Numbered from the stretch's first letter, positions 35,971 through 63,813 are shown. The stretch is 64,000 nt of DNA from Flavobacteriales bacterium (GCA_019912395.1 JAIOIH010000021.1:1-64000), one strand, 5' to 3'. Notes: a model not told the origin generated them from the letters alone. Numbers and translations are program-made.

Positions 35971-36963
35971 ATGCTCGACCTTCGCCTTGTTGCACTGGCC
36001 TTGTTCCTCATCGCCGCCGGACGCCTTTCGGGGCAGCCCGCGAACGATGATTGTGCCAACGCGGCGAACCTGTGCGCCCGGCAGCCCATGGCGGGGGACA
36101 ATACCGGTGCGCTGAACAACATGCCCGCCTATTGCCAGCCCGGGGCGCTTTCGGTGTGGTACACCTTCACCACCAACAGTGTGGGCGGCCCGGTCACCGT
36201 GAGCGTGGACGGTATAGACTGCCCGGCCGTGACCGGCATGGACAATGCGCTGAGCGCCGTGATCCTGGGCGGTGATGGAACCTGCGTTCCCAGCAGTTTC
36301 CAAGTGGCATCCGTTTGCCAGCAAGGTTCCGCGCCATTCTCGGTAACCTCCACCCAGGGGCTGCTGCCCTCCACGCAGTATTGGGTGATGGTGAGCGGCA
36401 TGCGCAACCCCCCGGCGACCATCGCCGCCCAGTGCGGGTTCAACATCACCGTGAGCGGGCCGGGGATGAACGTGGTGAACGTGGATTTCGATGCCGGCCC
36501 CGACGTGAGGATCCCGGCAGGCGCCAGTACCCAACTGCATGCCACCGGCGGCACCACCTATGAGTGGAGCCCCACCTCCGGACTGAGCGGAAATACCGTT
36601 TCCGACCCGGTGGCCCAGCCCACGGAAACCACCGTGTACACGGTGGCCACGGAGCTGAACGGCTGCATTTACGAGGATGCACTCACCGTGGAGGTGGTGC
36701 GGCTGGTGAACCCGGTGAACACCTTCACCCCCAATGGCGACGGCATCAACGATGTGTGGCTGATCCCGGAGCTCCGCGACCATCCGCAGGCGGAGGTCTC
36801 CATCTACGACCGATGGGGCCAGCGCGTGTTCCACAGCAGCGGGTACCGGGAACCCTTCGACGGTGCCGGCCTGCCCACGGCCACCTACTACTGGTATATC
36901 CAGCTGAACAACGTAACGGGAAAGTCCGATCCCTACACCGGTTACATCACCATAGTCCGCTGA
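35971..36963 (+). CDS. secreted protein with T9SS type-B (gliding-motility) C-terminal domain
   Basis: 330 aa. A signal peptide (LDLRLVALALFLIAAGRLSGQ) precedes a Cys-containing beta domain (about 25-170, NDDCANAANLCARQP ... SVWYTFTTNS) like the N-terminal binding domains of many Bacteroidota surface proteins. An Ig/PKD-like segment follows (FDAGPDVRIPAGASTQLHAT, about 175-245), then the type-B C-terminal domain (FTPNGDGIND ... ISIYDRWGQRVF-type ... YYWYIQLNN). The domain directs T9SS export. The ATG at 35971 is chosen to begin at the signal peptide; an in-frame ATG at 35932 is possible. Its stop codon overlaps the next gene's ATG by 1 nt. Confidence 0.82.
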   Translation: MLDLRLVALALFLIAAGRLSGQPANDDCANAANLCARQPMAGDNTGALNNMPAYCQPGALSVWYTFTTNSVGGPVTVSVDGIDCPAVTGMDNALSAVILGGDGTCVPSSFQVASVCQQGSAPFSVTSTQGLLPSTQYWVMVSGMRNPPATIAAQCGFNITVSGPGMNVVNVDFDAGPDVRIPAGASTQLHATGGTTYEWSPTSGLSGNTVSDPVAQPTETTVYTVATELNGCIYEDALTVEVVRLVNPVNTFTPNGDGINDVWLIPELRDHPQAEVSIYDRWGQRVFHSSGYREPFDGAGLPTATYYWYIQLNNVTGKSDPYTGYITIVR

Positions 36964-37898
36964 TGCGCTATTTGGCCCTGCTCCTCCTGTTCGGCTGTAC
37001 GCCGCTCATCGCGCAGCAAACCGCGCAGTACACGCAGTACGTGCTGAACATGTTCGCCATCAACCCGGCGGTGGCGGGCAGCAAGGATTGCATCGATGTT
37101 CGCCTGGGCTATCGCCAGCAATGGGTCGGCTTCCCCGGAGCGCCCGTTACCGGATGGGCCACGGTGAGCGGCGTGATCAAGCCCAAGAAGCGCTCCTACA
37201 AGGCCAACCGCCATGGCATCGGAACGTTCGTGGAGGCCGACAATACCGGGCCGATGGGGTACACCTCCTTCCAGTTGGCCTATGCCTACCACATCCAGAT
37301 GAAGCAGAACGTCTTCATGTCCCTGGGTTTATTCGGAGGGGTCCGGCAGGAGAAACTGTCCCTGGGGGATGTGTACGCCACGGACAACACCGATCCGGCA
37401 CTGGCCAACAACGGCAGTGTACTGGTCTATCCCGATGTGACGCCCGGCATCTGGATCTACGGGAAATCCACCTGGGCCGGGCTTTCCATTCAGCAGCTGC
37501 TGGGCAATAAGGTGGAGGATATCGGATTGGAGACCCGGCTTACGCGGCACTACATCGCGAGCGCAGGTCATCGCTTCAGGGTGAGCAAGAAGTTCAGCGT
37601 GGTTCCCAGCGGGCTGTTCAAGCTCTCTCCCGGTTCACCCCTGGCGATGGACCTCAACGTGATGATGGAATACCGCAGGAAGGTGGGCCTGGGCGTCTCC
37701 TACAGGAACCAGGACGCCGTGGCCTTCATGCTGAAGGTGCCCTTCCTGAAGTTCTTCACCCTGGGCTACAGCTACGACGTCACCACCAGCAAATTGCGCG
37801 TGGGGGGGGCGAACACTCATGAGATCATTCTTGGGATCTACCCCTGTGCACCCATGGACCCCAACAAAGCGATCGTACGATGCCCCATCTTCGAATGA
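36963..37898 (+). CDS. PorP/SprF-family outer-membrane protein (copy 1)
   Basis: 311 aa. A signal peptide ending LIAQQ is followed by the family opening QYTQYVLNMFAINPAVAGS and alternating barrel strands (GYRQQWVGFPG, SFQLAYAYHIQM, FSVVPSGLFKLS, TLGYSYDVTTSKL, HEIILGI). PorP/SprF proteins are outer-membrane barrels needed for T9SS secretion or for holding type-B C-terminal domains at the surface. TGATG coupling to the type-B cargo upstream and an ATGA overlap with the giant adhesin downstream imply co-translation. A G8 tract (37802-37809) lies near the 3' end. The C-terminus extends beyond the last strand (CAPMDPNKAIVRC). Confidence 0.9.
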   Translation: MRYLALLLLFGCTPLIAQQTAQYTQYVLNMFAINPAVAGSKDCIDVRLGYRQQWVGFPGAPVTGWATVSGVIKPKKRSYKANRHGIGTFVEADNTGPMGYTSFQLAYAYHIQMKQNVFMSLGLFGGVRQEKLSLGDVYATDNTDPALANNGSVLVYPDVTPGIWIYGKSTWAGLSIQQLLGNKVEDIGLETRLTRHYIASAGHRFRVSKKFSVVPSGLFKLSPGSPLAMDLNVMMEYRRKVGLGVSYRNQDAVAFMLKVPFLKFFTLGYSYDVTTSKLRVGGANTHEIILGIYPCAPMDPNKAIVRCPIFE

Positions 37899-40800
37899 GC
37901 ACCAACCGGCCCCCTCGATCCCCGATCCACGCCTATGCGTTCCTGTTGTGCGGTCTATTGATCGCCGGTACGCTCCGGGCACAGCAGGAGCGTTACTGGG
38001 TGGGCGGAAGCGGTCCCTGGAGCGATCCCGCGCACTGGGCGCTCACAGCAGGCGGAGCCGGTGGAGAAAGCGTGCCCCGCAACGGCGATGCGGTGATCAT
38101 TGCTCCTGCTGGCGGCGAGGTGGTGGTGACCGTGAACAAGGATGTCTCCGTTGGCGATCTGTTGCTGGATGGAACCAAGGCTTCCGTGGTCCTGGAGGGT
38201 TCGCAGGGCCGCCTGCGGATCAGCGGCGACATGGCGCTGCGCGGAAGCGTTGCGTGGAACCATGCCGGCACGGTGGAACTGGTCCAAGGAAAGGCAGTGG
38301 GTGAGCTGGACCTGCGCGGGATCCCGCTGGGGGGTGACCTCCTCTTCACCGGAGGAGGTACCTGGAGCATGCGGAGCGACCTGGTGCTGATCGACAGGGC
38401 TGATGTGGAATTGCGATCGGGCACGCTCGTTACCAACGGCAACATGCTTCGCGCCGGCGGTCTGGCCATCGCCGATCGGGGAGCGAAACTGATGGCCGGC
38501 AGCTCCGTGGTGATGCTCGCACGGGAGTTCGATCCCGGAAGCGCGCAGGGTGCGGTGGACCCTGGAAGTTCCAGGCTGTTGGTCGGCGGAGCCCTTGAGC
38601 CGTGGCGGGCGGGGACCGACCAGGGGCCGGAGGGCATACGCGCCGCGAACGTCTGTGCAACGGGGGTGGGCCAAACGCCCTTCACCATCGATGCCCAATT
38701 GATGAGCAATTACAATGGCTTCGGGGTGAGCTGCCACGGGGTGTGCAACGGCTCGGTGCGGGTGGTGGTCACCGGCGGTGTGGGGCCGTTCACCCACAGT
38801 TGGGTGGGAGGACCCGCTTCGGCCACATGGAACAATGTCTGCCCCGGCAACCAGATCGTGATCGTGACCGACCAGGGCCAAGGCGTGAGCTGCGCGACCA
38901 CGGTACAGGTTACCGATCCCGCGTTGTTGAGCGTGATATTCGCCGGGACCCAGCCACCCACGTGCGCGGGGGTGTGCAACGGTTCCTCTTCGGCGTTCGC
39001 GGTGGGCGGAGTGCCCGGATACGATTATTCCTGGAACAATGGCGCGGGAACGGGGGCCAGCTTCAACGCCCTTTGTCCCGGTTCCAATACCCTGCACGTC
39101 ACGGATGCCAATGGCTGCGCGTTCGATACCACGTTCATCTTCCCCATCCAGCCCATCCAGCCCAACCTGACCACCACGGACGTGCAATGCGCGAACGCCT
39201 GTGACGGAACGGCATCAGTGGCCCCGACCGGCGGCACCGGAAGCTTCACCTACAACTGGGGGCCCGGCAGTCCCGCCGGTGACGGCACCGCGTCGGTCAC
39301 CGGGCTGTGCGCCGGGAATTACACGGTGAACATCAGCGATGCCAACGGTTGTGATACCACGCTACTGTTCGAGATCACCGAGCCTCCCCCGATCCTGCCC
39401 AACGCCACCCATGTGGACGCCAGTTGCGGCAATGCTTGCGATGGCACGGCCACGGTGAACCCCACCGGGGGCACGGGTCCCTATGGCTATCTCTGGGCAC
39501 CTGAGCCGGGTGGAGGCCAAGGCACCGCTGCGGCCACCGGGCTTTGCGAAGGCAGCTATACCGTTACCATCGTGGACCTGACCAGCGGATGCGATACGAT
39601 GGTCACCATCACCATTGATGCACCGCCCGCGTTGATCCCCAACCCGAGCAGCACCGATGCCACGTGCGCCAACACGTGCGATGGCACCGCCACGGTGGCC
39701 CCTTCCGGAGGTACGCCACCGTTCGGCTATGTGTGGAACCCTGCACCACCGGTGGGCCAAAACACGGCCACCGCCTCGCAGCTCTGCCCGGGCAACTGGA
39801 GCGTGACCATCACCGATGACGCCGGTTGCGATACCACCGTGCAGTTCGTCATCAATGCGCCGCCGCCGATCACGGCCACTCCTGCACAGACCGATGTGAC
39901 CTGTGCAGGCGAATGCGACGGCACGGCCACCGCACCGGCCACGGGCGGCACCGGAACCCTCACCTACGATTGGCTGCCCGGTAATCCGCCAGGGGATGGC
40001 ACCGCATCGGTTACCGGCCTCTGTGCCGGCACGTGGACCGTGACCATCAGTGACGATAACGGCTGCGATACCACCATCACGTTCATCATTACCGAACCCG
40101 TGCCGCTGACCCTGGTCCCCAGCCAAACGGATCTGACCTGCGGGAATACCTGCGACGGGACCGCGACCGCCACCGTGGGTGGAGGGACCCCCGGCTACAG
40201 CTATGCATGGTCCCCCGAACCGGGAAGCGGGCAAGGAACCGCCACGGCCGTAGGGCTCTGTGCCGGCGTGTGGACCGTTACCGCGACCGATGACAATGGC
40301 TGCGAGATCATCCATGTGTTCACCATCCTGCCCGCCACACCCATCGTGGCCACATTGCAGACCACGCCGATCAGTTGCGCGAACGAGTGCGATGGAACAG
40401 CCACGGGCGTTGTTTCCGGTGGCGTTCCGCCCTACACCTACCAGTGGATGCCCCCACCGGCAGCGGGGCAGGGAACCTTGAACGCAACAGGTCTGTGCGA
40501 AGGACCGGGCACGTTCACCGTAACGGATTCCCTGGGTTGCGACACCACGATCCTGTTCACCATCACGGCACCGCCGCCCATCCAAGTGACGTCCACGGTA
40601 ACGGATGCGAGTTGCGCCGGGATCTGTGACGGCTCGATTGTGCTGGTCGCCTCCGGGGGAACAGGCCCCTTCAGCTATGCATGGACACCGGCCTCCGCGG
40701 GCACGGGCGCATCCGCCGTTGACCTGTGCTCCGGGGATTACCAAGTGGTGGTGTCCAGTGGCGGCTGCGATACCACGCTCAACTTCACCATCGACCAGCC

Positions 40801-43800
40801 ACCGGCCCTCGATGTGGACCTGTCCTTCACACCGGCCAACTGCGCGAATGCCTGCGATGGCACGGCCACCTTGACGGGCGACCTGGCCAACCTCACCTTC
40901 GTTTGGGCACCACAGCCGGGCAGCGGTCAAGGCACGGCGAACGTCACCGGCCTCTGCGCAGGACCCAACACGGTGACCGTGACCAACGCGGCGGGCTGCG
41001 ATACGCTGATCGCCTTCACCATTGATGCACCCACCCCGATCGTGCCGGCACTGGACATCACGAACGCCTCCTGCGGCACGGACTGCGATGGAGCCGTGGA
41101 GATCACCACCACTGGCGGAACCCCGGGCTACACCTACTTCTGGGCACCTGATCCGGGAAGCGGCCAAGGCACCTCCACGGCCGGTGCACTTTGCCCCGGA
41201 AGCTACGCGGTCACCATCACGGATGCCGCGGGTTGTGACACCACGGTACAATTCATCATCTCGCGGCCTGGGGGCATCAACGCCATGGGGACCGCGACAC
41301 CGGCCACTTGCGCGAACACTTGTGACGGTGCGATCGATGTAACGGCCACAGGAGGCTTGGAACCGTACACTTGGGCATGGTCTCCGGAACCGGGCGCTGG
41401 CCAGGGCACGGGGTCCGTTAGTGGTCTCTGCCCCGGCACATGGAGCGTCCTCATCGGCGACCAGGCGGGGTGCGACACCACGTTGACCTTCACCGTGGGA
41501 TCACCGGCCGCGATCGATCCGCACGGCGTGTTCACCCATGAAAGTTGCAACGGCCCATGCGATGGCACGGCGACCGTTTCGCCCACCGGGGGAACCGGGT
41601 CCTTCAGCTATGCATGGTCGCCTGCCCCTCCGGTGGGTGCGGGTACGGCATCAGTGAGCGGGCTTTGCGCCGGGGATTGGTGCGTTACCATCACGGATGG
41701 CGCGGGTTGCGATACCACTTGGTGCTTCACCATCCTTCCGAATTCACCGATCACGGGCACCGTGACCACGGTGGACGGAGGCTGCTGGAACGAATGCACG
41801 GGTGAGGCCACGGTCGCTGCCACGGGTGGGGTAGGAGCCTACACCTATCTCTGGGTGCCCGAGCCCGGTGCGGGCCAAGGCACGGCAACCGCCACCGGTC
41901 TCTGCCAAGGGCCTGGAACCGTGACCATCACGGATGCCGCCGGCTGTGATACCACCATCGCCTTCATCATCTTCAAGAATCCGCCCATCGTACCCAACCT
42001 CACGGTGTACCCGGAAAGCTGCACGGGTCCCTGCACCGGGGAGGCCGGTGTGTCGCCCTTGGGAGGCGGCGGTGGATACGTTTACCTATGGGCACCCGAA
42101 CCGGGCACGGGTCAAGGCACCGACGTGGTCTCCGGGCTGTGTGCCGGGGTGAGCTATTCCGTGACCATCACCGATGTGAACGGCTGCGATACAACGGTGG
42201 CGTTCACCGTGCCGGAGTTCGTGCCGATCGTGCCAGCGCTCACGCACGTGCCTGCTACTTGCTCCGATGCCTGTGATGGATCGGCAACGGTGACCGGCAT
42301 TGCGGGAGGCAGTGCGCCGTATACCTATTTCTGGGAGCCGACCCCCGCCAACGGACAAGGTGATTCCCTGGCCACGGGATTGTGCCCGGGCAGCTACCTC
42401 GTCACCGTTGCGGATGCGAACGGATGTGACACCACGCTGAACTTCATCATCACCGCACCCGCCCCCATCGATCCGCAGGCCACGGTAACGCCCATCGGCT
42501 GCGGGGGCCAATGCACGGGAGCCATCGATCTGGACACTCAAGGCGGCAACGGCAATTTTACCTATGTGTGGACGCCTGCACCGCCGGTGGGCCAAGGCAC
42601 GGCGAATGTGAGCCAGCTCTGCGCCGGTGATTGGAGCGTATTGATCACCGATGCGAATGGCTGCGACACCACGGTCACGTTCACCTTGACCGAGCCGCTG
42701 CCCATTGTGGCCAGTGCGGACGTGACGCAAAGCCATTGCGGTACCTGTGATGGAGCTGCCCAACTGCATGTATCGGGCGGGAACGCGCCTTACTCCTTCT
42801 TCTGGGGCCCGCCCTTGAACCTGACGACCACGGACAGCCTGCTCACGGATCTCTGCGGAGGTGTGTATACCGTGACGGTCACCGATGCTTCCGGATGTTC
42901 CATCCCGCTGGTAGTGGCCGTATCCGATGATGACGGGGAAGTGCTCACTGTGACGGATGGCATCACCAGCTGCCCCGATCTGTGCGACGGCTCGGTCTCG
43001 GTGAGCTACAACTGCGGCATCGCCCCATGCACCGTGGAATGGACCGACCTGCTCGGCAACAGCTTGGCTACCGGCACGGATACATTGGACGATCTATGCG
43101 CGGGGACCTACCTCGTATCGGTGACCAATGGCAGTGGTTGCATCACCATCGATACGGCGTTCGTTACCGAGCCGGATCCATTGGAAGCCAACATCAGCAG
43201 TACGCCCACCAATTGCGCGAACACCTGCGACGGCACGGCCACCATCGGCATCGTCGGTGGTGTGGGTCCGTTCACCTACACGTGGAGCCCGGCCCCCGGA
43301 GGTGGTCAGGGTACGCCCCAGGCCACGGGGCTGTGCGCGGGTAGCTACGAGATCCTCGTGCATGACCAAGGGGGGTGCGATGCCACCTTCAATGTGCTCA
43401 TCCTCTCCCCACAGCCGATCGCGGTGGATGCCACCGTAACGACCATCAGCTGCGCGGGCCAATGCGATGGCAGCATTACCGTGAACGCGCAAGGTGGCAC
43501 GGGAACCTTGGGTTACACCTGGTCGCCGATGCCGCCTGCCGGGCAGGGCACGGCCACTGCCAGCGGGCTTTGTCCCGGTACGTGGTCCGTTACCGTGGCT
43601 GATGCCAATGGTTGCGACACCACCCTCAGTTTCACCCTTGTGGACCCGCAGCCGTTGTCACTTTCCGGATCGAGCACTCAGAGCCATTGTGCGGTCTGTG
43701 ATGGCACGGCCACGATGATGGTGACCGGAGGTTCCGGTACGTTCGACATTCAATGGACCCAAGGCGGTGTTGGGGTCGGCTCCGGAGAAACGTTGACGGA

Positions 43801-46800
43801 TCTCTGTGCAGGCGTTTACGTGGCCAACGTGACCGATGCATCCGGGTGCACCGCCATGCAGACCGTGGTGGTGCTTGATGCCAGCGGAGAGATGATCACT
43901 GCCGTGGACGGCCAGACCCTGTGCGCCAATTCCTGCGACGGCCAAGTAAGCGTTTCCTACATCTGCTCCGATGCACCATGCACTGTTACGTGGTTCGGCA
44001 TTGCGGGGAACCAGTTGGCACAGGGCCAGGACACCTTGTCCGGGTTGTGCGCGGGCACCTATCTGGTGCAGGTGCTCAACGGTAGTGGATGCACGAGCAT
44101 CGACACCGCCCATGTGGTCCCTTCGCAAGTGATCGTGCCGAACCTGAGCACGACTCCGGTGAGCTGCTACGACCTCTGCGATGGTACGGCCACGGTAGGC
44201 CCCACCGGCGGTAATGCGCCGTATACCTTCAACTGGGTCCCGGCCCCTGCTGGTGGCCAAGGCACCCCACAGGCCACCGGCCTTTGTCCGGGCATCTATC
44301 AGGTGACCATCGCGGATTCCTCCGGATGCGATACCGTGGTGAGCCTGCTGATCACGGCACCACCGCCGTTGGCCGTTTCCGCGCAGGTGGACCAGGTCTC
44401 CTGCAACGGTGCCTGCAATGGAAGCATCGTGCTTTCACCCTCGGGAGGCAACGGCTTCTATTCCTACGTCTGGTCGCCCATGCCGCCCAACGGCCCCGGA
44501 AGTAATGCAGCCTTCAACCTCTGCCCGGGTGAATGGTCCGTGACCATTGCCGACCTCAACGGATGCGATACCACCATCACCTACACCATCACGGAGCCCG
44601 ACCCGCTCACCGCGCTCACCAGCTCCACCTTGAGCACGTGCAGCATCTGCAACGGCACGGCCTCGGTGATCCCAAGCGGAGGCACGGCACCCTATGCGAT
44701 CACCTGGTTGCAGAACGGCACCGTGCTCGGGAACGATAGCACCATCATCGATCTCTGCGCGGGGCTGTACACCGTCCGCGTGGTGGATGCCCACGGATGC
44801 GAAGTGGAGGTTCCCGTTCCGGTGAACGATATCGGCGGGGAGGTGCTGTCCACCACCGACTTCATGCTCACCTGTCCGGACCATTGCGACGGCATGGTGA
44901 GCGTCTCCTTCAATTGCGATGAACCACCCTGCACCACGGCCTGGTTCGATGGGGCCGGCAACGACCTGAACGAGCCGGGGAACACCCTCTCCAACCTCTG
45001 CGCGGGAACCTATTTCGCACAGGTGACCAACGGCTTGGGCTGCACCAGCTTGGATACGGCCTACGTGATCGCCCCCGATCCCATTGTGGCCAACCTCAGC
45101 ACTACGCCGGTGACCTGTGCCGGTGATTGCGATGGCACCGCGACCGTGGGGCCGACGGGCGGGGCTGGAGGGTATGAATACGAATGGGAGCTGGGATCGG
45201 GAACCGCCCAGGGCACTCCCCATGTGATCGGCCTCTGCGCGGGGACCTATCAGGTCACCATCACCGACCTCGCTGGCTGTTCGATCACGCAGGACGTGCT
45301 GATCCTCTCGCCGCCGCCGATCACTGCCGCCGCCGTGGTGGTGCCCATCACCTGCAACACTGCGTGCAATGGCAGCATCACCGTGATGGGGCAGGGAGGC
45401 ACCGGTACGCTGACCTATCAGTGGTCGCCCGAGCCGCCAACAGGCCAAGGCACCAATACGGTGACCGGGCTTTGCGCCGGTGCTTGGAGCGTTACCATCA
45501 CCGATGCCAACCAGTGCGACACCACCTTCACCCTCACCCTCACCGATCCCCCGGCACTGGTGGTGGACCTTTCCCACACGGACAATGTGTGCTTCAATGA
45601 TTGCGTGGCCGCGGCACATGCCGAGATCGCCGGCGGGGTGGCTCCATACGCGATCACATGGACGGGCCCCAATGGCGCTGTGATCGATCAGGACGTCATT
45701 GATGTCCTCGGACTTTGCGGGGGGGCGCACCAGCTCACGGTAACCGATTCGCGCGGTTGCGTGGTCGTCACTCCGTTCACTGTAGCAACAGGGGCACCGA
45801 TAGAGGCAAACCTCGTTTTCCAAGGGGAAAGCTGCAACGGCCCCTGCGATGGAAGCGCATCGGTCTCGCCCACGGGTGGAACAGGTGCCGGCTACAGCTA
45901 CCATTGGCAGCCCGGCAACCCGACAGGCCAGGGGACCGACCAAGTGAGCGGCCTCTGTCCGGGAAACTGGACGGTGACGATCACCGACGATGCGGGTTGT
46001 GACACCACGTACGCCTTCACCATCGCCCCCTTCATGCCCATTACTCCCGTGGCCACGGTGGAGCAGGTCACCTGCAATGGCGATTGCGATGGCAGCATCG
46101 CACTGGCCACCACCGGCGGTGTGGGCAGCCTTGCCTACCTCTGGGCGCCCGAGCCGGGAAGTGGCCAAGGCAGTGCCACGGCCAGCAACCTCTGCCCGGG
46201 ATCGTGGACCGTGACCATCACGGATGTAGCCGGCTGCGATACCACGGTCAGCTTTACCATTACTGAGCCGCCCGCATTGGAGGTGGTGGTGGACACTGCG
46301 GTATTCGCCAGTTGCAACTCCGCCAGCGACGGAGCCATTTCCATCTCGATCAGCGGTGGGGTGCCGGGCTACGGGATAGAGTGGACCGGCCCGAACGGCT
46401 TCACCTCCACGGATGAGGACATCAGCGATCTGGTACCCGGCACCTACGAGGTGACCGTATCGGACCTCAACGGCTGCCAAGTCTCCCGTACCATCGTGGT
46501 GGGCGCATCGAACACGGTGGTGGCCAACGCCGGGCCGGACCGCACGGAATGCTCCGGCGTGCTGATCACCCTGGATGGATCCGCCAGCCAAGGGGCCGTC
46601 ACCTACCAATGGAACGATGATCAAGGGGCGAGCGTGGGCACTGATCCGGTTGTCGATCTCGGCGTGCTCCCCGACGGCACCTACACTTACGTGCTCACCG
46701 TGGCCGATGGCGTATGCACCAGTACGGACACCGTGGTGATCACCATATTGCCCACGCCCATCGCCGATGCCGGCCCCAACAGGAGCATTTACCTTCAAGG

Positions 46801-47263
46801 AACCACGGTGCTCGGCGGATCGCCGTCCGGTCCTCCGGGAAGCAGCTTCACCTGGCAACCCGACAGCTTGCTGGACCATGCCGACATACCGGACCCCACC
46901 GCCACGCTGGATGTCACCACATGGTTCCACCTGACGGTGGTGGCACCCGATGGCTGCGTCGGCATCGATTCGGTATTGGTGACCGTGGTGCCGGAAGTGA
47001 AAGTGCCCAGCGGCTTCACGCCCAATGGCGATGGCCATAACGATACGTGGATACTGGACTTCGCATCCTTGTTCCCCGGTATTGAGGTACAAGTGTTCAG
47101 CCGATGGGGCGAACCGCTGTTCCGCAGCGTGGGCTATGCGGTGCCATGGGACGGAAAATATGACGGGAAGATCGTCCCCATGGGCACGTACTACTACGTG
47201 GTGGAGCTGCACGACGACCGCTTCCCGGAGGCACTCACCGGACCGCTTACCGTGATCCGTTAA
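37895..47263 (+). CDS. giant SprB-like repeat adhesin with type-B C-terminal domain
   Basis: 3122 aa. Signal peptide (FLLCGLLIAGTLRAQ), then a beta-rich N-terminal region with ERYWVGGSGPWSDPAHWAL (about 37-275), as in many Flavobacteria surface proteins. About 33 SprB-like modules follow from residue about 279 to 2870, mean about 78 residues. Each has C-x3-C-D/N-G-T/S, a GG turn, Y-x-W, LC-G and a GC-D turn. Then a PKD/Ig-like part (ANAGPDRTECSGVLITLDGS) and the type-B domain from residue 3037 (VPSGFTPNGDGHND). SprB-type proteins are carried along the surface in gliding or act as adhesins. The ATG at 37895 overlaps the PorP stop (ATGA). Confidence 0.93.
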   Translation: MSTNRPPRSPIHAYAFLLCGLLIAGTLRAQQERYWVGGSGPWSDPAHWALTAGGAGGESVPRNGDAVIIAPAGGEVVVTVNKDVSVGDLLLDGTKASVVLEGSQGRLRISGDMALRGSVAWNHAGTVELVQGKAVGELDLRGIPLGGDLLFTGGGTWSMRSDLVLIDRADVELRSGTLVTNGNMLRAGGLAIADRGAKLMAGSSVVMLAREFDPGSAQGAVDPGSSRLLVGGALEPWRAGTDQGPEGIRAANVCATGVGQTPFTIDAQLMSNYNGFGVSCHGVCNGSVRVVVTGGVGPFTHSWVGGPASATWNNVCPGNQIVIVTDQGQGVSCATTVQVTDPALLSVIFAGTQPPTCAGVCNGSSSAFAVGGVPGYDYSWNNGAGTGASFNALCPGSNTLHVTDANGCAFDTTFIFPIQPIQPNLTTTDVQCANACDGTASVAPTGGTGSFTYNWGPGSPAGDGTASVTGLCAGNYTVNISDANGCDTTLLFEITEPPPILPNATHVDASCGNACDGTATVNPTGGTGPYGYLWAPEPGGGQGTAAATGLCEGSYTVTIVDLTSGCDTMVTITIDAPPALIPNPSSTDATCANTCDGTATVAPSGGTPPFGYVWNPAPPVGQNTATASQLCPGNWSVTITDDAGCDTTVQFVINAPPPITATPAQTDVTCAGECDGTATAPATGGTGTLTYDWLPGNPPGDGTASVTGLCAGTWTVTISDDNGCDTTITFIITEPVPLTLVPSQTDLTCGNTCDGTATATVGGGTPGYSYAWSPEPGSGQGTATAVGLCAGVWTVTATDDNGCEIIHVFTILPATPIVATLQTTPISCANECDGTATGVVSGGVPPYTYQWMPPPAAGQGTLNATGLCEGPGTFTVTDSLGCDTTILFTITAPPPIQVTSTVTDASCAGICDGSIVLVASGGTGPFSYAWTPASAGTGASAVDLCSGDYQVVVSSGGCDTTLNFTIDQPPALDVDLSFTPANCANACDGTATLTGDLANLTFVWAPQPGSGQGTANVTGLCAGPNTVTVTNAAGCDTLIAFTIDAPTPIVPALDITNASCGTDCDGAVEITTTGGTPGYTYFWAPDPGSGQGTSTAGALCPGSYAVTITDAAGCDTTVQFIISRPGGINAMGTATPATCANTCDGAIDVTATGGLEPYTWAWSPEPGAGQGTGSVSGLCPGTWSVLIGDQAGCDTTLTFTVGSPAAIDPHGVFTHESCNGPCDGTATVSPTGGTGSFSYAWSPAPPVGAGTASVSGLCAGDWCVTITDGAGCDTTWCFTILPNSPITGTVTTVDGGCWNECTGEATVAATGGVGAYTYLWVPEPGAGQGTATATGLCQGPGTVTITDAAGCDTTIAFIIFKNPPIVPNLTVYPESCTGPCTGEAGVSPLGGGGGYVYLWAPEPGTGQGTDVVSGLCAGVSYSVTITDVNGCDTTVAFTVPEFVPIVPALTHVPATCSDACDGSATVTGIAGGSAPYTYFWEPTPANGQGDSLATGLCPGSYLVTVADANGCDTTLNFIITAPAPIDPQATVTPIGCGGQCTGAIDLDTQGGNGNFTYVWTPAPPVGQGTANVSQLCAGDWSVLITDANGCDTTVTFTLTEPLPIVASADVTQSHCGTCDGAAQLHVSGGNAPYSFFWGPPLNLTTTDSLLTDLCGGVYTVTVTDASGCSIPLVVAVSDDDGEVLTVTDGITSCPDLCDGSVSVSYNCGIAPCTVEWTDLLGNSLATGTDTLDDLCAGTYLVSVTNGSGCITIDTAFVTEPDPLEANISSTPTNCANTCDGTATIGIVGGVGPFTYTWSPAPGGGQGTPQATGLCAGSYEILVHDQGGCDATFNVLILSPQPIAVDATVTTISCAGQCDGSITVNAQGGTGTLGYTWSPMPPAGQGTATASGLCPGTWSVTVADANGCDTTLSFTLVDPQPLSLSGSSTQSHCAVCDGTATMMVTGGSGTFDIQWTQGGVGVGSGETLTDLCAGVYVANVTDASGCTAMQTVVVLDASGEMITAVDGQTLCANSCDGQVSVSYICSDAPCTVTWFGIAGNQLAQGQDTLSGLCAGTYLVQVLNGSGCTSIDTAHVVPSQVIVPNLSTTPVSCYDLCDGTATVGPTGGNAPYTFNWVPAPAGGQGTPQATGLCPGIYQVTIADSSGCDTVVSLLITAPPPLAVSAQVDQVSCNGACNGSIVLSPSGGNGFYSYVWSPMPPNGPGSNAAFNLCPGEWSVTIADLNGCDTTITYTITEPDPLTALTSSTLSTCSICNGTASVIPSGGTAPYAITWLQNGTVLGNDSTIIDLCAGLYTVRVVDAHGCEVEVPVPVNDIGGEVLSTTDFMLTCPDHCDGMVSVSFNCDEPPCTTAWFDGAGNDLNEPGNTLSNLCAGTYFAQVTNGLGCTSLDTAYVIAPDPIVANLSTTPVTCAGDCDGTATVGPTGGAGGYEYEWELGSGTAQGTPHVIGLCAGTYQVTITDLAGCSITQDVLILSPPPITAAAVVVPITCNTACNGSITVMGQGGTGTLTYQWSPEPPTGQGTNTVTGLCAGAWSVTITDANQCDTTFTLTLTDPPALVVDLSHTDNVCFNDCVAAAHAEIAGGVAPYAITWTGPNGAVIDQDVIDVLGLCGGAHQLTVTDSRGCVVVTPFTVATGAPIEANLVFQGESCNGPCDGSASVSPTGGTGAGYSYHWQPGNPTGQGTDQVSGLCPGNWTVTITDDAGCDTTYAFTIAPFMPITPVATVEQVTCNGDCDGSIALATTGGVGSLAYLWAPEPGSGQGSATASNLCPGSWTVTITDVAGCDTTVSFTITEPPALEVVVDTAVFASCNSASDGAISISISGGVPGYGIEWTGPNGFTSTDEDISDLVPGTYEVTVSDLNGCQVSRTIVVGASNTVVANAGPDRTECSGVLITLDGSASQGAVTYQWNDDQGASVGTDPVVDLGVLPDGTYTYVLTVADGVCTSTDTVVITILPTPIADAGPNRSIYLQGTTVLGGSPSGPPGSSFTWQPDSLLDHADIPDPTATLDVTTWFHLTVVAPDGCVGIDSVLVTVVPEVKVPSGFTPNGDGHNDTWILDFASLFPGIEVQVFSRWGEPLFRSVGYAVPWDGKYDGKIVPMGTYYYVVELHDDRFPEALTGPLTVIR
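38729..46520 (+). repeat. about 33 SprB-like coding modules
   Basis: Counted by the C-x3-C-D/N-G signature in the translation. Most units are about 230-240 nt. Sequence identity between neighbouring units is partial, so the array is old or diversified rather than freshly expanded. Confidence 0.8.
42731..45583 (+). repeat. three copies of a 951-bp four-module super-repeat
   Basis: The same order of four distinct module types (a: short, C-x-x-CDG/CNG, ending GE-L/M; b: with a second Cys pair, NC/IC...PCT; c: TCDGTAT/LCDGTAT; d: ICNGS/QCDGS) occurs at 42731, 43682 and 44633, and the next unit starts at 45584. Each step is 951 bp (317 codons) with no net insertion or deletion. Confidence 0.85.
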
Positions 47264-47266
47264 CAC

Positions 47267-48205
47267 ATGGACCTCATGCGACATCTCCTTCTCCTCCTGA
47301 TCGCTGGATCGTCCCTGCAGGCCGTGCGTGCGCAGCAACTGCCGCAGCTCAGCCAGTACAACAGCAACGATTACCTGTACGACCCGGCGGTGGCCGGAAG
47401 TCGCCCCTGGTTCGAGATCCGGAGCACCCACCGCAACCAATGGGTGGGCATCCAGGATGCACCGCGCACCTTCATGCTCAGCGCCACCACGCCCTTGGGG
47501 ACCAACATGGGCCTGGGCGGATACATCTTCACGGACAACGTGGGGCCTTCGCGGCGCACGGGCATGCAGCTCAGCTACGCCTACCACCTGCGCATCACCG
47601 AGGGTATCAAGCTGGGCCTGGGCCTTTCGTTCGGCATGCTCCAGTTCCTGATCGATGGATCCAAGATCGAGTTCCACGATCCCGATGAACCCCTGATGGA
47701 TGCTCAGCTCCGCGGATCGCTGATGCCCGATGCCACCTTCGGCCTCTATCTCTATCACGAGAAATGGTGGTTCGGCGCCACCGCTCCGCAACTGCTCCAC
47801 AACAGGGTCATCTTTTTCGATGATCAGGACCAGAGCTTCAGCACCTTGGCCGCGCATTATTATGCGTTGGGCGGCTACCGCTTCGCCATTGGTGAAGACC
47901 TGAAGCTGGAACCCTCCTTCCTGCTGAAGTATGTGGACCCGGTCCCACCGAAGGTCGACCTCACCGCCACCGTGCGTTACCGCGATATGGTCTGGTTGGG
48001 TGCCACCTACCGCACCGAGGATGCACTCAGCTTCATGGTGGGTTACTGGATGAAGAAAACATTCCAGTTCGGCTACAGCTACGACCTTACCACCACCAAT
48101 TTGCGCAATTACACTTCCGGCACCCATGAGGTGATGTTGGGTGTGACCTTTGGGAAGGAGCCCCCGCCGCCACCGGCCCCACCGACTTTGGAGCCCACAC
48201 CTTGA
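47267..48205 (+). CDS. PorP/SprF-family outer-membrane protein (copy 2)
   Basis: 312 aa. Signal peptide (LLLLIAGSSLQAVRAQQ), the family opening LSQYNSNDYLYDPAVAGS, and barrel strands (STHRNQWVGIQD, LSYAYHLRI, GATYRTEDAL, FGYSYDLTTTNL, HEVMLGV). It starts 3 nt after the stop of the 3122-aa adhesin. The short C-terminal PPPPPAPP tail is unusual for the family and may be periplasmic or a linker. It is the dedicated barrel partner candidate for the adhesin just upstream. Confidence 0.9.
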   Translation: MDLMRHLLLLLIAGSSLQAVRAQQLPQLSQYNSNDYLYDPAVAGSRPWFEIRSTHRNQWVGIQDAPRTFMLSATTPLGTNMGLGGYIFTDNVGPSRRTGMQLSYAYHLRITEGIKLGLGLSFGMLQFLIDGSKIEFHDPDEPLMDAQLRGSLMPDATFGLYLYHEKWWFGATAPQLLHNRVIFFDDQDQSFSTLAAHYYALGGYRFAIGEDLKLEPSFLLKYVDPVPPKVDLTATVRYRDMVWLGATYRTEDALSFMVGYWMKKTFQFGYSYDLTTTNLRNYTSGTHEVMLGVTFGKEPPPPPAPPTLEPTP

Positions 48206-59691: not shown

Positions 59692-60307
59692 CCGATTCAT
59701 CAAGTGCCAAGCAGCGATACCCTTGGCGCGCCCAACCCTCCAAGATCAAGGGTAGCGCATCGGTGAGGCATGCAGTGCTCTTCAAGTTGTCGTGCAGTAC
59801 GATGATGCTGCCCGGTCTCGTCCGTCCGAGCACCAGGCGGGCACAGGCCGCACCGGTCCTGCCCGGCTTGAAATCCCCGCCCATCACATCCCACATCACC
59901 ACCCGATAGCGCTTCCGCAGGACGTGCAGGTGCGCGGGACGGAGGTGACCGTACGGTGGGCGGAACAAATGCCCTCCGATATGCTTCTCACCGCGCAGCA
60001 CCGAGCGATGGAACGCACGCGCCGGGGTGCGCCAGCCATCGCTGTGGTCCCATGTGTGATGCCCCACTGCATGCCCTTCATTCCGCAGCCGCAGGAACAG
60101 TTCGGGGTACCGTTCCGCATTGCTGCCCAAGCAGAAGAACGTGGCCTTCGCGTCGTAGGCCGCCAAGGTGTCCAGCACCCAGGGGGTTACCTCGGGTCGT
60201 GGTCCGTCATCGAAAGTGAGGAAAACCTCCTTCTCCCGCGTGGGCACGCGCCACAGCACGCGGCGGTCCAGCATGGCCAGCATGCGCAGGACCACCCCGC
60301 CGGGCAT
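59669..60307 (-). CDS. polysaccharide deacetylase (NodB-homology domain)
   Basis: 212 aa. NodB motifs: TFDDGP (31-36) with catalytic/metal Asp33-Asp34, GHHTWDH (82-88) with metal ligands His84 and His88, RPPYG (116-120), and VLHD near the C-terminus. This family removes N-acetyl groups from peptidoglycan, chitin-like or surface polysaccharides. No signal peptide is obvious, although the N-terminal VVLRMLAML is hydrophobic. It is translationally coupled to the DUF2723 gene upstream (stop/start share 1 nt at 60307). The substrate is unknown. Confidence 0.9.
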   Translation of the reverse strand: MPGGVVLRMLAMLDRRVLWRVPTREKEVFLTFDDGPRPEVTPWVLDTLAAYDAKATFFCLGSNAERYPELFLRLRNEGHAVGHHTWDHSDGWRTPARAFHRSVLRGEKHIGGHLFRPPYGHLRPAHLHVLRKRYRVVMWDVMGGDFKPGRTGAACARLVLGRTRPGSIIVLHDNLKSTACLTDALPLILEGWARQGYRCLALDESVTNLGPR

Positions 60308-63300
60308 CAGAACCGCGCGTTGGTGGTCCGCATGCCCTGGGTGGCGATATCCTCCATCTTCATCTGGTACAGCGTGTCCACTTCCGCTGCACGGGCGTTC
60401 AGCTTATTGGCCAGGTCCTTTTGTCCGTAGATCTGGGCCGTGCGGGCCAAGCGCTCCATCACCAGCTTGCCCATGCTCATATCATCGCTCACCCTGTTGG
60501 CGAACTTCGGCGAGAGGCTCAAGTACCAGTTCATGTTCTCGTCCATGATGGTGAACAGCCTTTCGGTCAGGCGGTTCGCCGAGGTGGTATCATCGGCCTG
60601 GTAGTAGGCCTCGATGATCGGGAGCATGATCCGGTCGTAGGGCACGTTCTTCTCCGGCATTTTCGCCTGTGCGAGGTCCAGGACCTGCTTGGCCTCCTCC
60701 TTTCGCCCTTCCGAAGCCAGTTCCGTGGCCAGGGTGGCGATCTGCAGTCGCAGGTTGGTGGTCATCCGCAGCACGTTCTCGTCCAGGTACACGCCTGGCT
60801 CGTAGTCCATGCCGCCCCACTTGAACTTGTTCATCACGTTGTCCAGCATAATGTCCGTGGCCACGCTGCCGTACGTGTTCGGGTTGGCCGATTCACCGGC
60901 CACCGGCACCAAGCGGTAGGTAAGGCCCTCCAACCGGAAATAGTCCTGGAGGTTCAGGTAGCTGTCCGGTCCGGTGGTCACCGCAAAGTAGATGGGCCGC
61001 TTCCAATCGTTGTTGGCCAGCAGGTCCATCATCAGGAAGTGGTTCTTCAGCACATATTGCTTGTTGATGGTCCAGCGCACGTCACCGGTGAAGTAGGCGG
61101 TGTCCGCTGCCGTAAGCATGCCTTGCGGACCGAAGACGAAGGCGCTGTCCGCCGTGATCCGGAAGTTCTGGCTGGGGATGTAGGCATCCTTCATGCCCAG
61201 TTGGAAGATCTGCTGCAGGTTGCGGTCGTCCGTGGCGAAGTCCATGGCGCGCTTGAGGTCCAGGTAGCCCTTTACCTTTTCGTTCGGGATCAATGCCACC
61301 ACGTCGCGTGTCCCCTGCCGATACTTGGCCGGGTCCATCTTGAACGGCACCGGTTCGCTATCGTATGCCTTGCGACGCATCTGGTCGATGTACCAATCGG
61401 TGTTCAACAGGCTCAGGTTCACCACGCGCACATCGGTGCGGATGCCTTCCACTTCCTGGGCGTACCACAAGGGGAAGGTGTCGTTGTCGCCATTGGTGAA
61501 GAGGATGGCGTTCGGGGCGCAGCTGTTCAGGTAGTCGGCGGCGAGGTCCCGGGCAGGGTAGCGGTTGCTCCGGTCATGGTCGTCCCATTCCGCACGCACC
61601 ATCACCACGGGCACCACGAGGCCGATGAGCGTGGCCACCACGGCACTGGCCCGGTCGTTCCGCAGGTTGCGCATCAGGTACATCACCCCCAGCGCAATGC
61701 CGCTGACGATGCCGATGAGGAAGAAGCTGTAGGAGATGGAGTGGTCGGTGCCGGAAACAAGCTCCACCAAGTATTTCAGCACGCCGATGCCCAGCGTTCC
61801 GCCCACGGCATACAGCAGTTCCTTTTGGGTGATGGACCGCGCCGCATCGAACAGCGCGTACACCCCGAGGCCGATCCAGAAGGCGAAGGCGTAGAACGAA
61901 CCCACGTAGGCATAGTCCCGTTCACGCGGCTGGAACGGATACTGGTTCAGGTAGACCACGATGGCCAGGCCCGTGAAGAAGAACAGCAGCATCACCACGC
62001 TCCAATTGCGAATATCACGGGTGAGCTGGTACACCAGCCCGATGAGGCCCAGAATGAGCGGCAACAGGTAGAGCTTGTTCATGCCCTTGTTCTCCGTCAT
62101 GCTCGGCGGCAGGTGGTCCTGGTTGCCGAGGCGCTGGGAGTCGATGGCCTTGATGCCGGTGTACCAGTTGCCATCGGTTATGCCGCCATGGCCTTGGATA
62201 TCGTTCTGGCGTCCGGCGAAATTCCAGAGGAAATAGCGCCAGTACATCCAGTTCACCTGGTAGTTGACGAAGAAGCGCATGTTCTCCATCTGGGTCGGCT
62301 TCTGGATCACCGTGGGCTTGCCCTCGCGGTCGGTGGTGCGCACGGGGTAGCCCTTGAAATCGCTCCACTGCTTGTAGGCTGTGACGTGGTTGGCCTGCGA
62401 ACTGTACATCCGGGGGAACGCCATGGTGGTGGCGGGATCGTACACCGGCTCGGTCCCTTTGCGCGCATCCGTGATCACGTACTCGTTCTTGATGGTGAGG
62501 CCCGGGTTTTCGGCCACGTAATGGTCCGCACTCCAACCGTCGTAGAAGAGCTTTTCGGTCCGGGTGCCCTTCATCACCTTGTAGGTGGCGGTGTATACCG
62601 GGTTGCCATCGTCGCGCTGGTTGGTCATCTGGCTGCCCCAGAACTGGCCCATGACCAGTGGGCGGTCGCCGTACTGTTCGCGATTGAGGTAGCTCAACAG
62701 GTTGAACACGTTCTCCGGATTGTTCTCATCGATCGGTGGGTTGGCATTGCTGCGGACCACGATCATGGCGAAGGTGCTGTAGCCCACCAGGATCACGGTG
62801 ACGCCCAGGATCACGGTGTTCAGCACCACTTTGCCCTTGCGCTGGGTCCACATCAGCCCCCAGACGATCAGTCCGATGATGATCAACGCATAGATGAGGT
62901 TCCCCGTGTTGAAGGGCAGGCCGAAGTCGTTCACGAAGACCAGCTCGAACTTGCCCGCCATATTCACCAGTCCCGGAATGATCACGCCCTGGATGGCCCC
63001 GAGGATCAGCGCTGAAATGATGAAGGTGTAGATGATGCCCTTACGGGTCACCTCGTACTTCTTGAAATAGTAGACGAAGGCGATGGCCGGGATGCAGAGC
63101 AAGTTCAGCAGGTGGACACCGATGCTGAGGCCCATCAGATAGGCGATCAGGATAAGCCAGCGGGTGTTGTGCGGTTTATCGGCCTCGCTCTCCCACTTCA
63201 GGATGGCCCAGAACACGATGGCGGTAAAGAAGGACGACATGCCATAGACCTCGCCCTCCACGGCGCTGAACCAGAACGAATCACTCCAGGTGTAGGCCAG

Positions 63301-63681
63301 GGCACCCACGATGCCGCTGCCGAGCACGGCAATGATCTTGCCGCTGGTGAGTTCCTCATCGCCTTTCCGGGTGGCGAGGCGCAGGGCCATGTGGGTAATG
63401 CTCCAGAAGAGGAAAAGAATGGTGAACGCGCTGGCCAAGGCGCTCAGGGTGTTCACGGCCACCGGCACGTTCTCCGGGGAAACGAAGGCACTGGCCACCC
63501 GTGCCAGGATCATGAACAGGGGCGCTCCGGGAGGGTGCCCTACCTCGAGCTTGTAGGCCGTGGCAATGAATTCCCCGCAATCCCAAAAGCTTGCCGTGGG
63601 CTCGATGGTGGAGAGATAGGTGACGGCGGCCACCAGAAAAACGGCCCATCCGGTGGCGATGTTCAGCTTCTTGAAATTCAT
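60307..63681 (-). CDS. DUF2723 multi-spanning protein, probable GT-C glycosyltransferase
   Basis: 1124 aa. The N-terminal half contains about ten transmembrane segments (WAVFLVAAVTYLS, ILFLFWSITHMAL and others), with the family signature FWDCGEFIATAYKLEVGHPP near residue 32 carrying the Asp-Cys-Gly-Glu loop of GT-C enzymes. The C-terminal half is a periplasmic region with TPR-like helices (QVLDLAQAKMPEKNVPYD). DUF2723 proteins are considered O-mannosyltransferase-like and are typical of Bacteroidota, where secreted proteins are O-glycosylated. The ATG at 63681 is chosen; the extra 14 residues upstream are not conserved-looking. First gene of a pair with the deacetylase. Confidence 0.85.
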   Translation of the reverse strand: MNFKKLNIATGWAVFLVAAVTYLSTIEPTASFWDCGEFIATAYKLEVGHPPGAPLFMILARVASAFVSPENVPVAVNTLSALASAFTILFLFWSITHMALRLATRKGDEELTSGKIIAVLGSGIVGALAYTWSDSFWFSAVEGEVYGMSSFFTAIVFWAILKWESEADKPHNTRWLILIAYLMGLSIGVHLLNLLCIPAIAFVYYFKKYEVTRKGIIYTFIISALILGAIQGVIIPGLVNMAGKFELVFVNDFGLPFNTGNLIYALIIIGLIVWGLMWTQRKGKVVLNTVILGVTVILVGYSTFAMIVVRSNANPPIDENNPENVFNLLSYLNREQYGDRPLVMGQFWGSQMTNQRDDGNPVYTATYKVMKGTRTEKLFYDGWSADHYVAENPGLTIKNEYVITDARKGTEPVYDPATTMAFPRMYSSQANHVTAYKQWSDFKGYPVRTTDREGKPTVIQKPTQMENMRFFVNYQVNWMYWRYFLWNFAGRQNDIQGHGGITDGNWYTGIKAIDSQRLGNQDHLPPSMTENKGMNKLYLLPLILGLIGLVYQLTRDIRNWSVVMLLFFFTGLAIVVYLNQYPFQPRERDYAYVGSFYAFAFWIGLGVYALFDAARSITQKELLYAVGGTLGIGVLKYLVELVSGTDHSISYSFFLIGIVSGIALGVMYLMRNLRNDRASAVVATLIGLVVPVVMVRAEWDDHDRSNRYPARDLAADYLNSCAPNAILFTNGDNDTFPLWYAQEVEGIRTDVRVVNLSLLNTDWYIDQMRRKAYDSEPVPFKMDPAKYRQGTRDVVALIPNEKVKGYLDLKRAMDFATDDRNLQQIFQLGMKDAYIPSQNFRITADSAFVFGPQGMLTAADTAYFTGDVRWTINKQYVLKNHFLMMDLLANNDWKRPIYFAVTTGPDSYLNLQDYFRLEGLTYRLVPVAGESANPNTYGSVATDIMLDNVMNKFKWGGMDYEPGVYLDENVLRMTTNLRLQIATLATELASEGRKEEAKQVLDLAQAKMPEKNVPYDRIMLPIIEAYYQADDTTSANRLTERLFTIMDENMNWYLSLSPKFANRVSDDMSMGKLVMERLARTAQIYGQKDLANKLNARAAEVDTLYQMKMEDIATQGMRTTNARF

Positions 63682-63704
63682 GGGGTGCCGGGCTTCATAA
63701 GCGG

Positions 63705-63712
63705 CGAATGTA
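63705..63712 (-). promoter_or_regulatory. putative Bacteroidota -7 box of the DUF2723 gene
   Basis: Minus-strand TACATTCG followed by CCGC, 23 nt before the ATG at 63681, the same form as at lepA and metG. Confidence 0.4.
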
Positions 63713-63813
63713 CCTAAAGTCACATGTTCGCATTCTTTTCGGCGGCCGTATTGCGGAACTTTCTAAATTTGCCGCGCTTTCAAGGTGGCGTTTGCCGGTC
63801 CGGGAAGCGGTAT

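Follow-up and report, generated by a model that had tools for sequence, protein, structure and literature searches.

Does an exactly repeated length inside a bacterial adhesin mean that the length itself is under selection? The question is raised by a very large surface protein from an uncultured member of the Flavobacteriales, encoded in the 64,000-nucleotide stretch JAIOIH010000021.1:1-64000 of assembly GCA_019912395.1 (the window), in which a block of four repeat modules recurs three times at a spacing of exactly 951 bp. A first-pass annotation of the window had read this spacing as the mark of a fixed axial repeat, a rigid rod segment whose length is held more tightly than its sequence. 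The super-repeat is probably an old higher-order repeat, made by recombination in the stalk of a type IX secretion system (T9SS) type B adhesin, and this explanation best covers the observations as a whole. Length constraint is visible at the scale of the module number of the whole array, and not at that of the 317-amino-acid (aa) unit.

Organization and register of the super-repeat

The adhesin (3127 aa; P0001) is encoded by an open reading frame (ORF) at 37880-47263 on the plus strand. From the N- to the C-terminus it comprises a signal peptide, an N-terminal domain of about 240 aa, an array of about 33 SprB modules, each 75-81 aa long, and a sorting domain of T9SS type B. A Pfam search matched the SprB repeat family PF13573 in 23 stretches (E 1.6e-167, 543 bits against a cut-off of 28), so that multiple repeats lie above the Pfam cut-off, and the C-terminus matched PF13585 (CHU_C; 69.9 bits, cut-off 27) and TIGR04131 (E 1.1e-15, 57.5 bits, cut-off 35), the domains that mark T9SS type B cargo. 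The protein is thus of a known kind, a T9SS type B SprB-repeat fibrillar adhesin, here with an old higher-order repeat, and its description as an SprB-like adhesin in the first-pass annotation was correct. Modules were cut at the first cysteine of each and numbered from 0, and the features of the gene are as follows.

37880..47263, plus strand: SprB-repeat fibrillar adhesin with T9SS type B C-terminal domain (PF13573, TIGR04131)
37985..38710, plus strand: N-terminal domain after the signal peptide, 242 aa, predicted all-beta (AlphaFold2)
38708..42235, plus strand: array modules 0-14, with a weak four-module period in modules 2-14 (offset-4 excess, p = 0.0014)
42236..42712, plus strand: modules 15 (c-type) and 16 (d-type), continuing the period upstream (identity matrix)
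42713..43663, plus strand: unit 1, 317 aa (a1 42713-42946, b1 42947-43189, c1 43190-43426, d1 43427-43663)
43664..44614, plus strand: unit 2, 317 aa (a2 43664-43897, b2 43898-44140, c2 44141-44377, d2 44378-44614)
44615..45565, plus strand: unit 3, 317 aa (a3 44615-44848, b3 44849-45091, c3 45092-45328, d3 45329-45565)
45566..45808, plus strand: module 29, a-like, followed by the non-periodic modules 30-32 (identity matrix)
47000..47260, plus strand: T9SS type B sorting domain (CHU_C / Bac_Flav_CTERM), residues 3041-3126 (Pfam, TIGR04131)

Modules 17-28 have lengths of 78, 81, 79 and 79 aa three times running, which gives three units of 951 bp (317 codons). The a-b-c-d order and the period given in the first-pass annotation were reproduced, its starts at 42731, 43682, 44633 and 45584 marking the same units six codons later. 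Its statement that there is no net indel also stands, as a MAFFT alignment of the three units has 317 columns and no gaps, leaving no compensating indels. Gapless protein identity between the units is 53, 53 and 50 %, and a search for a register in which the modules pair better gave none, the next-best offset within the region being one module (79 aa) with an identity of 21 %.

In a matrix of pairwise module identities, each the mean of 26 orthologues, the offset-4 signal is significant over the whole array (permutation p = 5e-5), with a weaker excess in modules 2-14 alone (p = 0.0014). Like modules four apart are 45-61 % alike, whereas the figure is only 27-31 % for neighbours of which at least one is an a or b module, and about 45 % for c-d neighbours. 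Type a modules have a C-x2-C opening and a DxxGE linker and type b modules an extra cysteine pair, while types c and d are ordinary. The period spans modules 15-29: by mean within-genome identity, module 15 is 55-60 % identical to the c modules and module 16 is 52-54 % identical to the d modules, and module 29 is nearest to modules 17 and 25 once corrected for module means. Since c- and d-type modules precede unit 1 and an a-like module follows unit 3, the phase, and with it the choice of first module, is arbitrary.

Age of the triplication and copying within the array

DNA identity between the units in the window genome is 56-58 %, and four-fold sites are 38-44 % identical where 30-34 % is expected from composition. 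These sites are near saturation and the triplication is therefore old, in agreement with the earlier description of the units as considerably diverged. No recent DNA-level exchange between the units of the window genome was seen. Among 300 a-d modules from 20 genomes, 277 have as nearest relative the module at the same position in another genome and not a paralogue in the same genome, so most units have been separate since before most of the diversification of the genus.

Parts of the array have been copied recently in several lineages. Among within-array module pairs of at least 75 % identity, which are not independent of each other, 20 of 32 are exactly four modules apart and 7 of 32 are two apart. 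Modules 12-15 of G023, the sister of the window genome (G000), are copies of its own modules 8-11 (65-82 % identity) and are only 47-55 % identical to the window protein at these positions; the module number is the same in both. In G022 a stretch of 911 nt recurs without gaps 945 nt (four modules) away, with 83 % DNA identity, and modules 8-14 of G033 (L083; a four-contig assembly) contain a recent two-module (465-bp) amplification with copies 90-91 % identical in DNA. These patterns suggest that copying in the array proceeds for the most part by steps of four modules and often leaves the module count as it was.

Length of the array and of the unit

Of 45 congeneric genomes, 42 contain matches to the adhesin. 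Orthologous regions were drawn from 39 further genomes, and arrays were segmented with a hidden Markov model (HMM) made from the window modules. In 27 of the 30 complete orthologues the ORF is 3118-3156 aa long with a canonical 34 HMM hits (33 SprB modules and a weak last domain), some of these proteins having a weak 35th hit at the array end. In the 18 canonical proteins with both ends anchored, 2753-2766 aa separate the first module cysteine from the sorting domain. About 33 modules are kept down to about 50 % identity, the median absolute deviation (MAD) of ORF length is 6.5 aa, and 90 % of lengths lie within 1 % of the median. The exceptions are G012, with four more modules, G003, with four fewer, and G033, with one more and a local two-module amplification. 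The additional 317 aa of G012 were considered as a further copy of the super-repeat, a candidate that was rejected, as modules 8-11 are duplicated and all three units are present. Short-read collapse does not account for the constancy, since assemblies in very few contigs (G002, one contig; G033, four; G037, seven; G024, nine) also give 33 or 34 modules.

Two other loci served as controls, using ORF lengths from search tables and excluding those judged to be cut by contig ends. Orthologues of P0002, the adjacent type B repeat adhesin, are 2567-3099 aa long, with a MAD of 72.5 aa and 30 % within 1 % of the median, and the MAD of an SprB paralogue on contig C24 is 82 aa. The difference in length spread has a Mann-Whitney p of 1.6e-4, which ignores relatedness and is indicative only. 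Plain standard deviations (SDs) are equal (112 aa) owing to three outliers, and the claim of constancy rests on the MAD and the fraction near the median. Mean module identity is 38 % in P0001 and 39 % in P0002; the modules are equally diverged, and divergence by itself therefore does not account for the contrast in spread.

Across the 27 canonical orthologues, length SDs are 1.31, 1.59 and 0.79 aa for the super-repeat blocks and 0.63-1.82 aa for the other four-module blocks, so no special length constraint on the super-repeat blocks was detected relative to the others. The total variance of array length (14.40) equals the summed module variances (14.36), which means that small indels show neither compensation nor correlation. 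Unit length, taken as the spacing of the a-type cysteine motif, ranges from 313 to 320 aa across the genus, exact 317/317 spacing being confined to the nearest clade (G000, G023, G020, G030 and G017), and more than half of the array has no a-b-c-d alternation but is just as well conserved in length. The first-pass annotation had pointed to homologues as a place to find the same period, which was not found beyond the genus: SprB arrays in other genera have higher-order periods of 2 (L035), 3/6 (L038), possibly 7 (L040) or none (L039), and an order-level search added no genera beyond the window's own. The differing periods of L038, L040 and L035, all from other Bacteroidota, are an observation in their own right, as duplication of multi-module blocks seems to be common in the SprB repeat family.

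Length is thus held while sequence diverges, as the first-pass annotation had it, but 317 aa is not specially fixed, and selection on a 317-aa axial repeat is not supported beyond general domain-length conservation. The equal 951-bp spacing is explained by old block triplication together with low within-module indel rates in a conserved fold.

Fold and cysteines

Structure prediction of a unit had been suggested together with the rod reading, and AlphaFold2 was run on a1-d2 with 27 orthologues. The model is an all-beta chain (predicted local distance difference test score, pLDDT, 88), and the modules are predicted to be Ig-like domains in a chain. The top solved relative of the unit profile is the grappling-hook protein GhpA (E 1.8e-30), and the best PDB matches of a fold search were GhpA fragments and multi-Ig adhesion proteins. 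In eight modules compared across 27 genomes the module cysteines, four in a, c and d and six in b, are invariant or at least 90 % conserved, which points to module disulfides and a cysteine-rich stalk. The N-terminal domain is confidently predicted to be all-beta, with a pLDDT of 88.8 and a predicted template modelling score (pTM) of 0.81, and its strand pattern suggests a beta-solenoid. No Pfam family covers the domain, and a PDB search gave nothing significant, the best hit being a tapirin adhesin domain at E 0.18. The domain would be the fibre tip if the C-terminus is at the membrane.

Carrier and gliding

The gene directly downstream encodes the candidate partner of the adhesin.

47267..48205, plus strand: cognate carrier, PorP/SprF family outer-membrane protein, 312 aa (TIGR03519, PF11751)

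The TIGR03519 match has an E value of 5.4e-82 and 275.5 bits against a cut-off of 90.55; the adhesin thus has a dedicated PorP/SprF carrier gene beside it, as expected of a T9SS type B system, and a carrier-like ORF lies directly downstream in most orthologue loci. Type B cargo remains bound to its dedicated carrier, and in Flavobacterium johnsoniae a Cys-x-Cys C-tail of SprF couples SprB to the moving track and is required for sustained movement (PMC12635249). The SprB repeats, the type B sorting domain and the SprF-family partner would fit a moving gliding adhesin like F. johnsoniae SprB, as would the presence of GldJ in the genome, just above its cut-off (459.3 against 458.2 bits). The mature part of the window carrier, however, is free of cysteines and so lacks the periplasmic Cys-x-Cys C-tail of SprB-type gliding adhesins, no tail cysteines were found in the orthologous carriers recovered (a survey made without G005 and G006), and GldB falls below its cut-off (180.9 against 190 bits). 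A gliding role is accordingly unlikely. Because the carrier has no track-coupling cysteines, a static attachment fibre appears more likely than a moving gliding adhesin.

Proposed explanation and alternatives

We propose that a block of four Ig-like SprB modules (a-b-c-d) was tandemly duplicated before most of the genus split, and that the units then diverged under the constraint of the fold, with cysteines (nearly) invariant and indels rare and small, which would be why the spacing is still 951 bp while half of the sequence differs. Later copying would favour partners four modules apart, presumably since like modules sit there, and would often overwrite rather than insert, keeping the module number near 33. 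Functionally, the C-terminal domain would, once exported, remain attached to the PorP/SprF carrier dedicated to it in the outer membrane, with some 33 disulfide-stiffened domains keeping the all-beta N-terminal domain a more or less constant distance away from the cell. Selection on length, if there is any, would act on the stalk as a whole rather than on the 317-aa unit. That the 33-module array is a length-constrained spacer of fixed reach, edited by count-neutral four-module copying and with its reach held genus-wide at 50 % identity, is a tentative extension to which we give somewhat less than an even chance.

If the unit were instead the constant axial period of a rigid rod, its length held by selection through, for example, a superhelix turn or a lateral contact, this would account for the equal lengths of three units that share 50 % identity, for a- and b-specific features returning every fourth domain, for the weak four-module period in modules 2-14 and for the four-step register kept by recent copying. 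This reading is nevertheless quite improbable, because the super-repeat blocks are no more constant in length than others and show no indel compensation, the units vary in relatives and other genera have other periods or none, and more than half of the array is as conserved in length without the alternation. Alternatively, the module number could be frozen because the modules are too diverged in DNA to recombine, with no selection on length. The 56-58 % DNA identity between units and a drift in total length equal to the sum of independent small indels agree with this, but P0002 at the same locus, with equally diverged modules, has a ten-fold larger length spread, and recent, often count-neutral copying does occur within the P0001 array; we regard frozen number as possible though doubtful. 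Alternation of four types might also serve to keep neighbouring domains dissimilar and so avoid co-aggregation during folding, a misfolding argument that has been discussed for repeat adhesins (PMC8201768) and that the low similarity of neighbours involving a or b, relative to modules four apart, would fit. As a cause of the alternation this is very improbable and finds no support in the offset-1 test, in which the neighbours in modules 2-14 are not depleted in similarity (the offset-1 residual is unremarkable), and the c-d neighbours are themselves about 45 % alike.

Several points weigh against the explanation by old duplication and whole-stalk constraint. Most of the genomes compared are fragmented metagenome-assembled genomes, and a constant module number could have non-selective causes, the control loci being two only, P0002 and the C24 paralogue. 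The direction and mechanism of copying are inferred from end states, in which gene conversion and duplication plus deletion would look alike. The units of G039 and G013b cluster within their genomes with moderate support (0.84-0.93 and 0.72-0.81), a grouping that needs concerted evolution or separate triplications. The domain-to-domain geometry of the a1-d2 model is uncertain (pTM 0.41), so that the prediction gives an Ig-like all-beta chain and no reliable inter-domain arrangement.

Neighbouring genes

The region 35932-59691 contains three consecutive pairs of type B cargo and PorP/SprF protein, with cargo proteins of 343, 3127 and 2785 aa, and is closed by an OmpA/PorE-like protein after P0002 and its PorP/SprF-type carrier. 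P0002 (48219-56576) is the second giant type B T9SS protein, of 2785 aa, with repeats of about 80 aa (GGxPDxGGTW, CS) for which neither Pfam nor NCBIfam has a properly matching repeat model. The PorP/SprF protein upstream of the adhesin, at 36564-37898, has two C-tail cysteines (PCAPMDPNKAIVRCPIFE), as does the PorP/SprF protein beside GldJ (L149; CKKKRRRVRTVPC), and these two may be track-coupled carriers. A TMEM260-like protein O-mannosyltransferase (PF11028) is encoded at 60307-63723 on the minus strand, near the Thr-rich surface proteins described above, which it could glycosylate.

Comparison with known systems

F. johnsoniae SprB (PMC9870892, PMC12635249) resembles the window adhesin in its SprB repeats, type B C-terminal domain and dedicated PorP/SprF carrier. 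It is a gliding adhesin of 6497 aa, about twice as long, whereas the window adhesin has four to six cysteines per module, a four-module higher-order repeat and a carrier without the twin-cysteine tail. The sole PDB sequence match of the full protein is GhpA of Aureispira sp. CCB-QB1 (PDB 9FLP and related entries), a grappling hook of 5898 aa; both are similar chains of Ig-like domains and the C-terminal part matches as well, the likeness being one of sequence and fold only. Fibrillar adhesins in general (PMC8286594) share the many stalk domains and a distinct terminal domain, but the N-terminal domain of the window adhesin has no Pfam family and its adhesive role is only putative.

Tandem-repeat adhesins often vary in length, and the variation is thought to be useful. 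More notable than the triplication is that a stalk of about 33 domains is kept genus-wide while internal blocks are copied and overwritten. A constant-stalk adhesin beside a varying repeat adhesin offers a natural comparison for when stalk length matters, and the pair also bears on how long repeat arrays are edited at unchanged size. The periscope proteins Sgo_0707, SasG and Rib (PMC8201768) likewise use tandem folded domains as a stalk that projects an N-terminal domain. Their repeats, however, are highly identical in DNA and variable in number, whereas here DNA identity between units is about 57 % and the module number is nearly constant, with 27 of 30 orthologues at the canonical count. Were the array indeed a spacer of fixed reach, it would be the opposite of the variable-length periscope adhesins.

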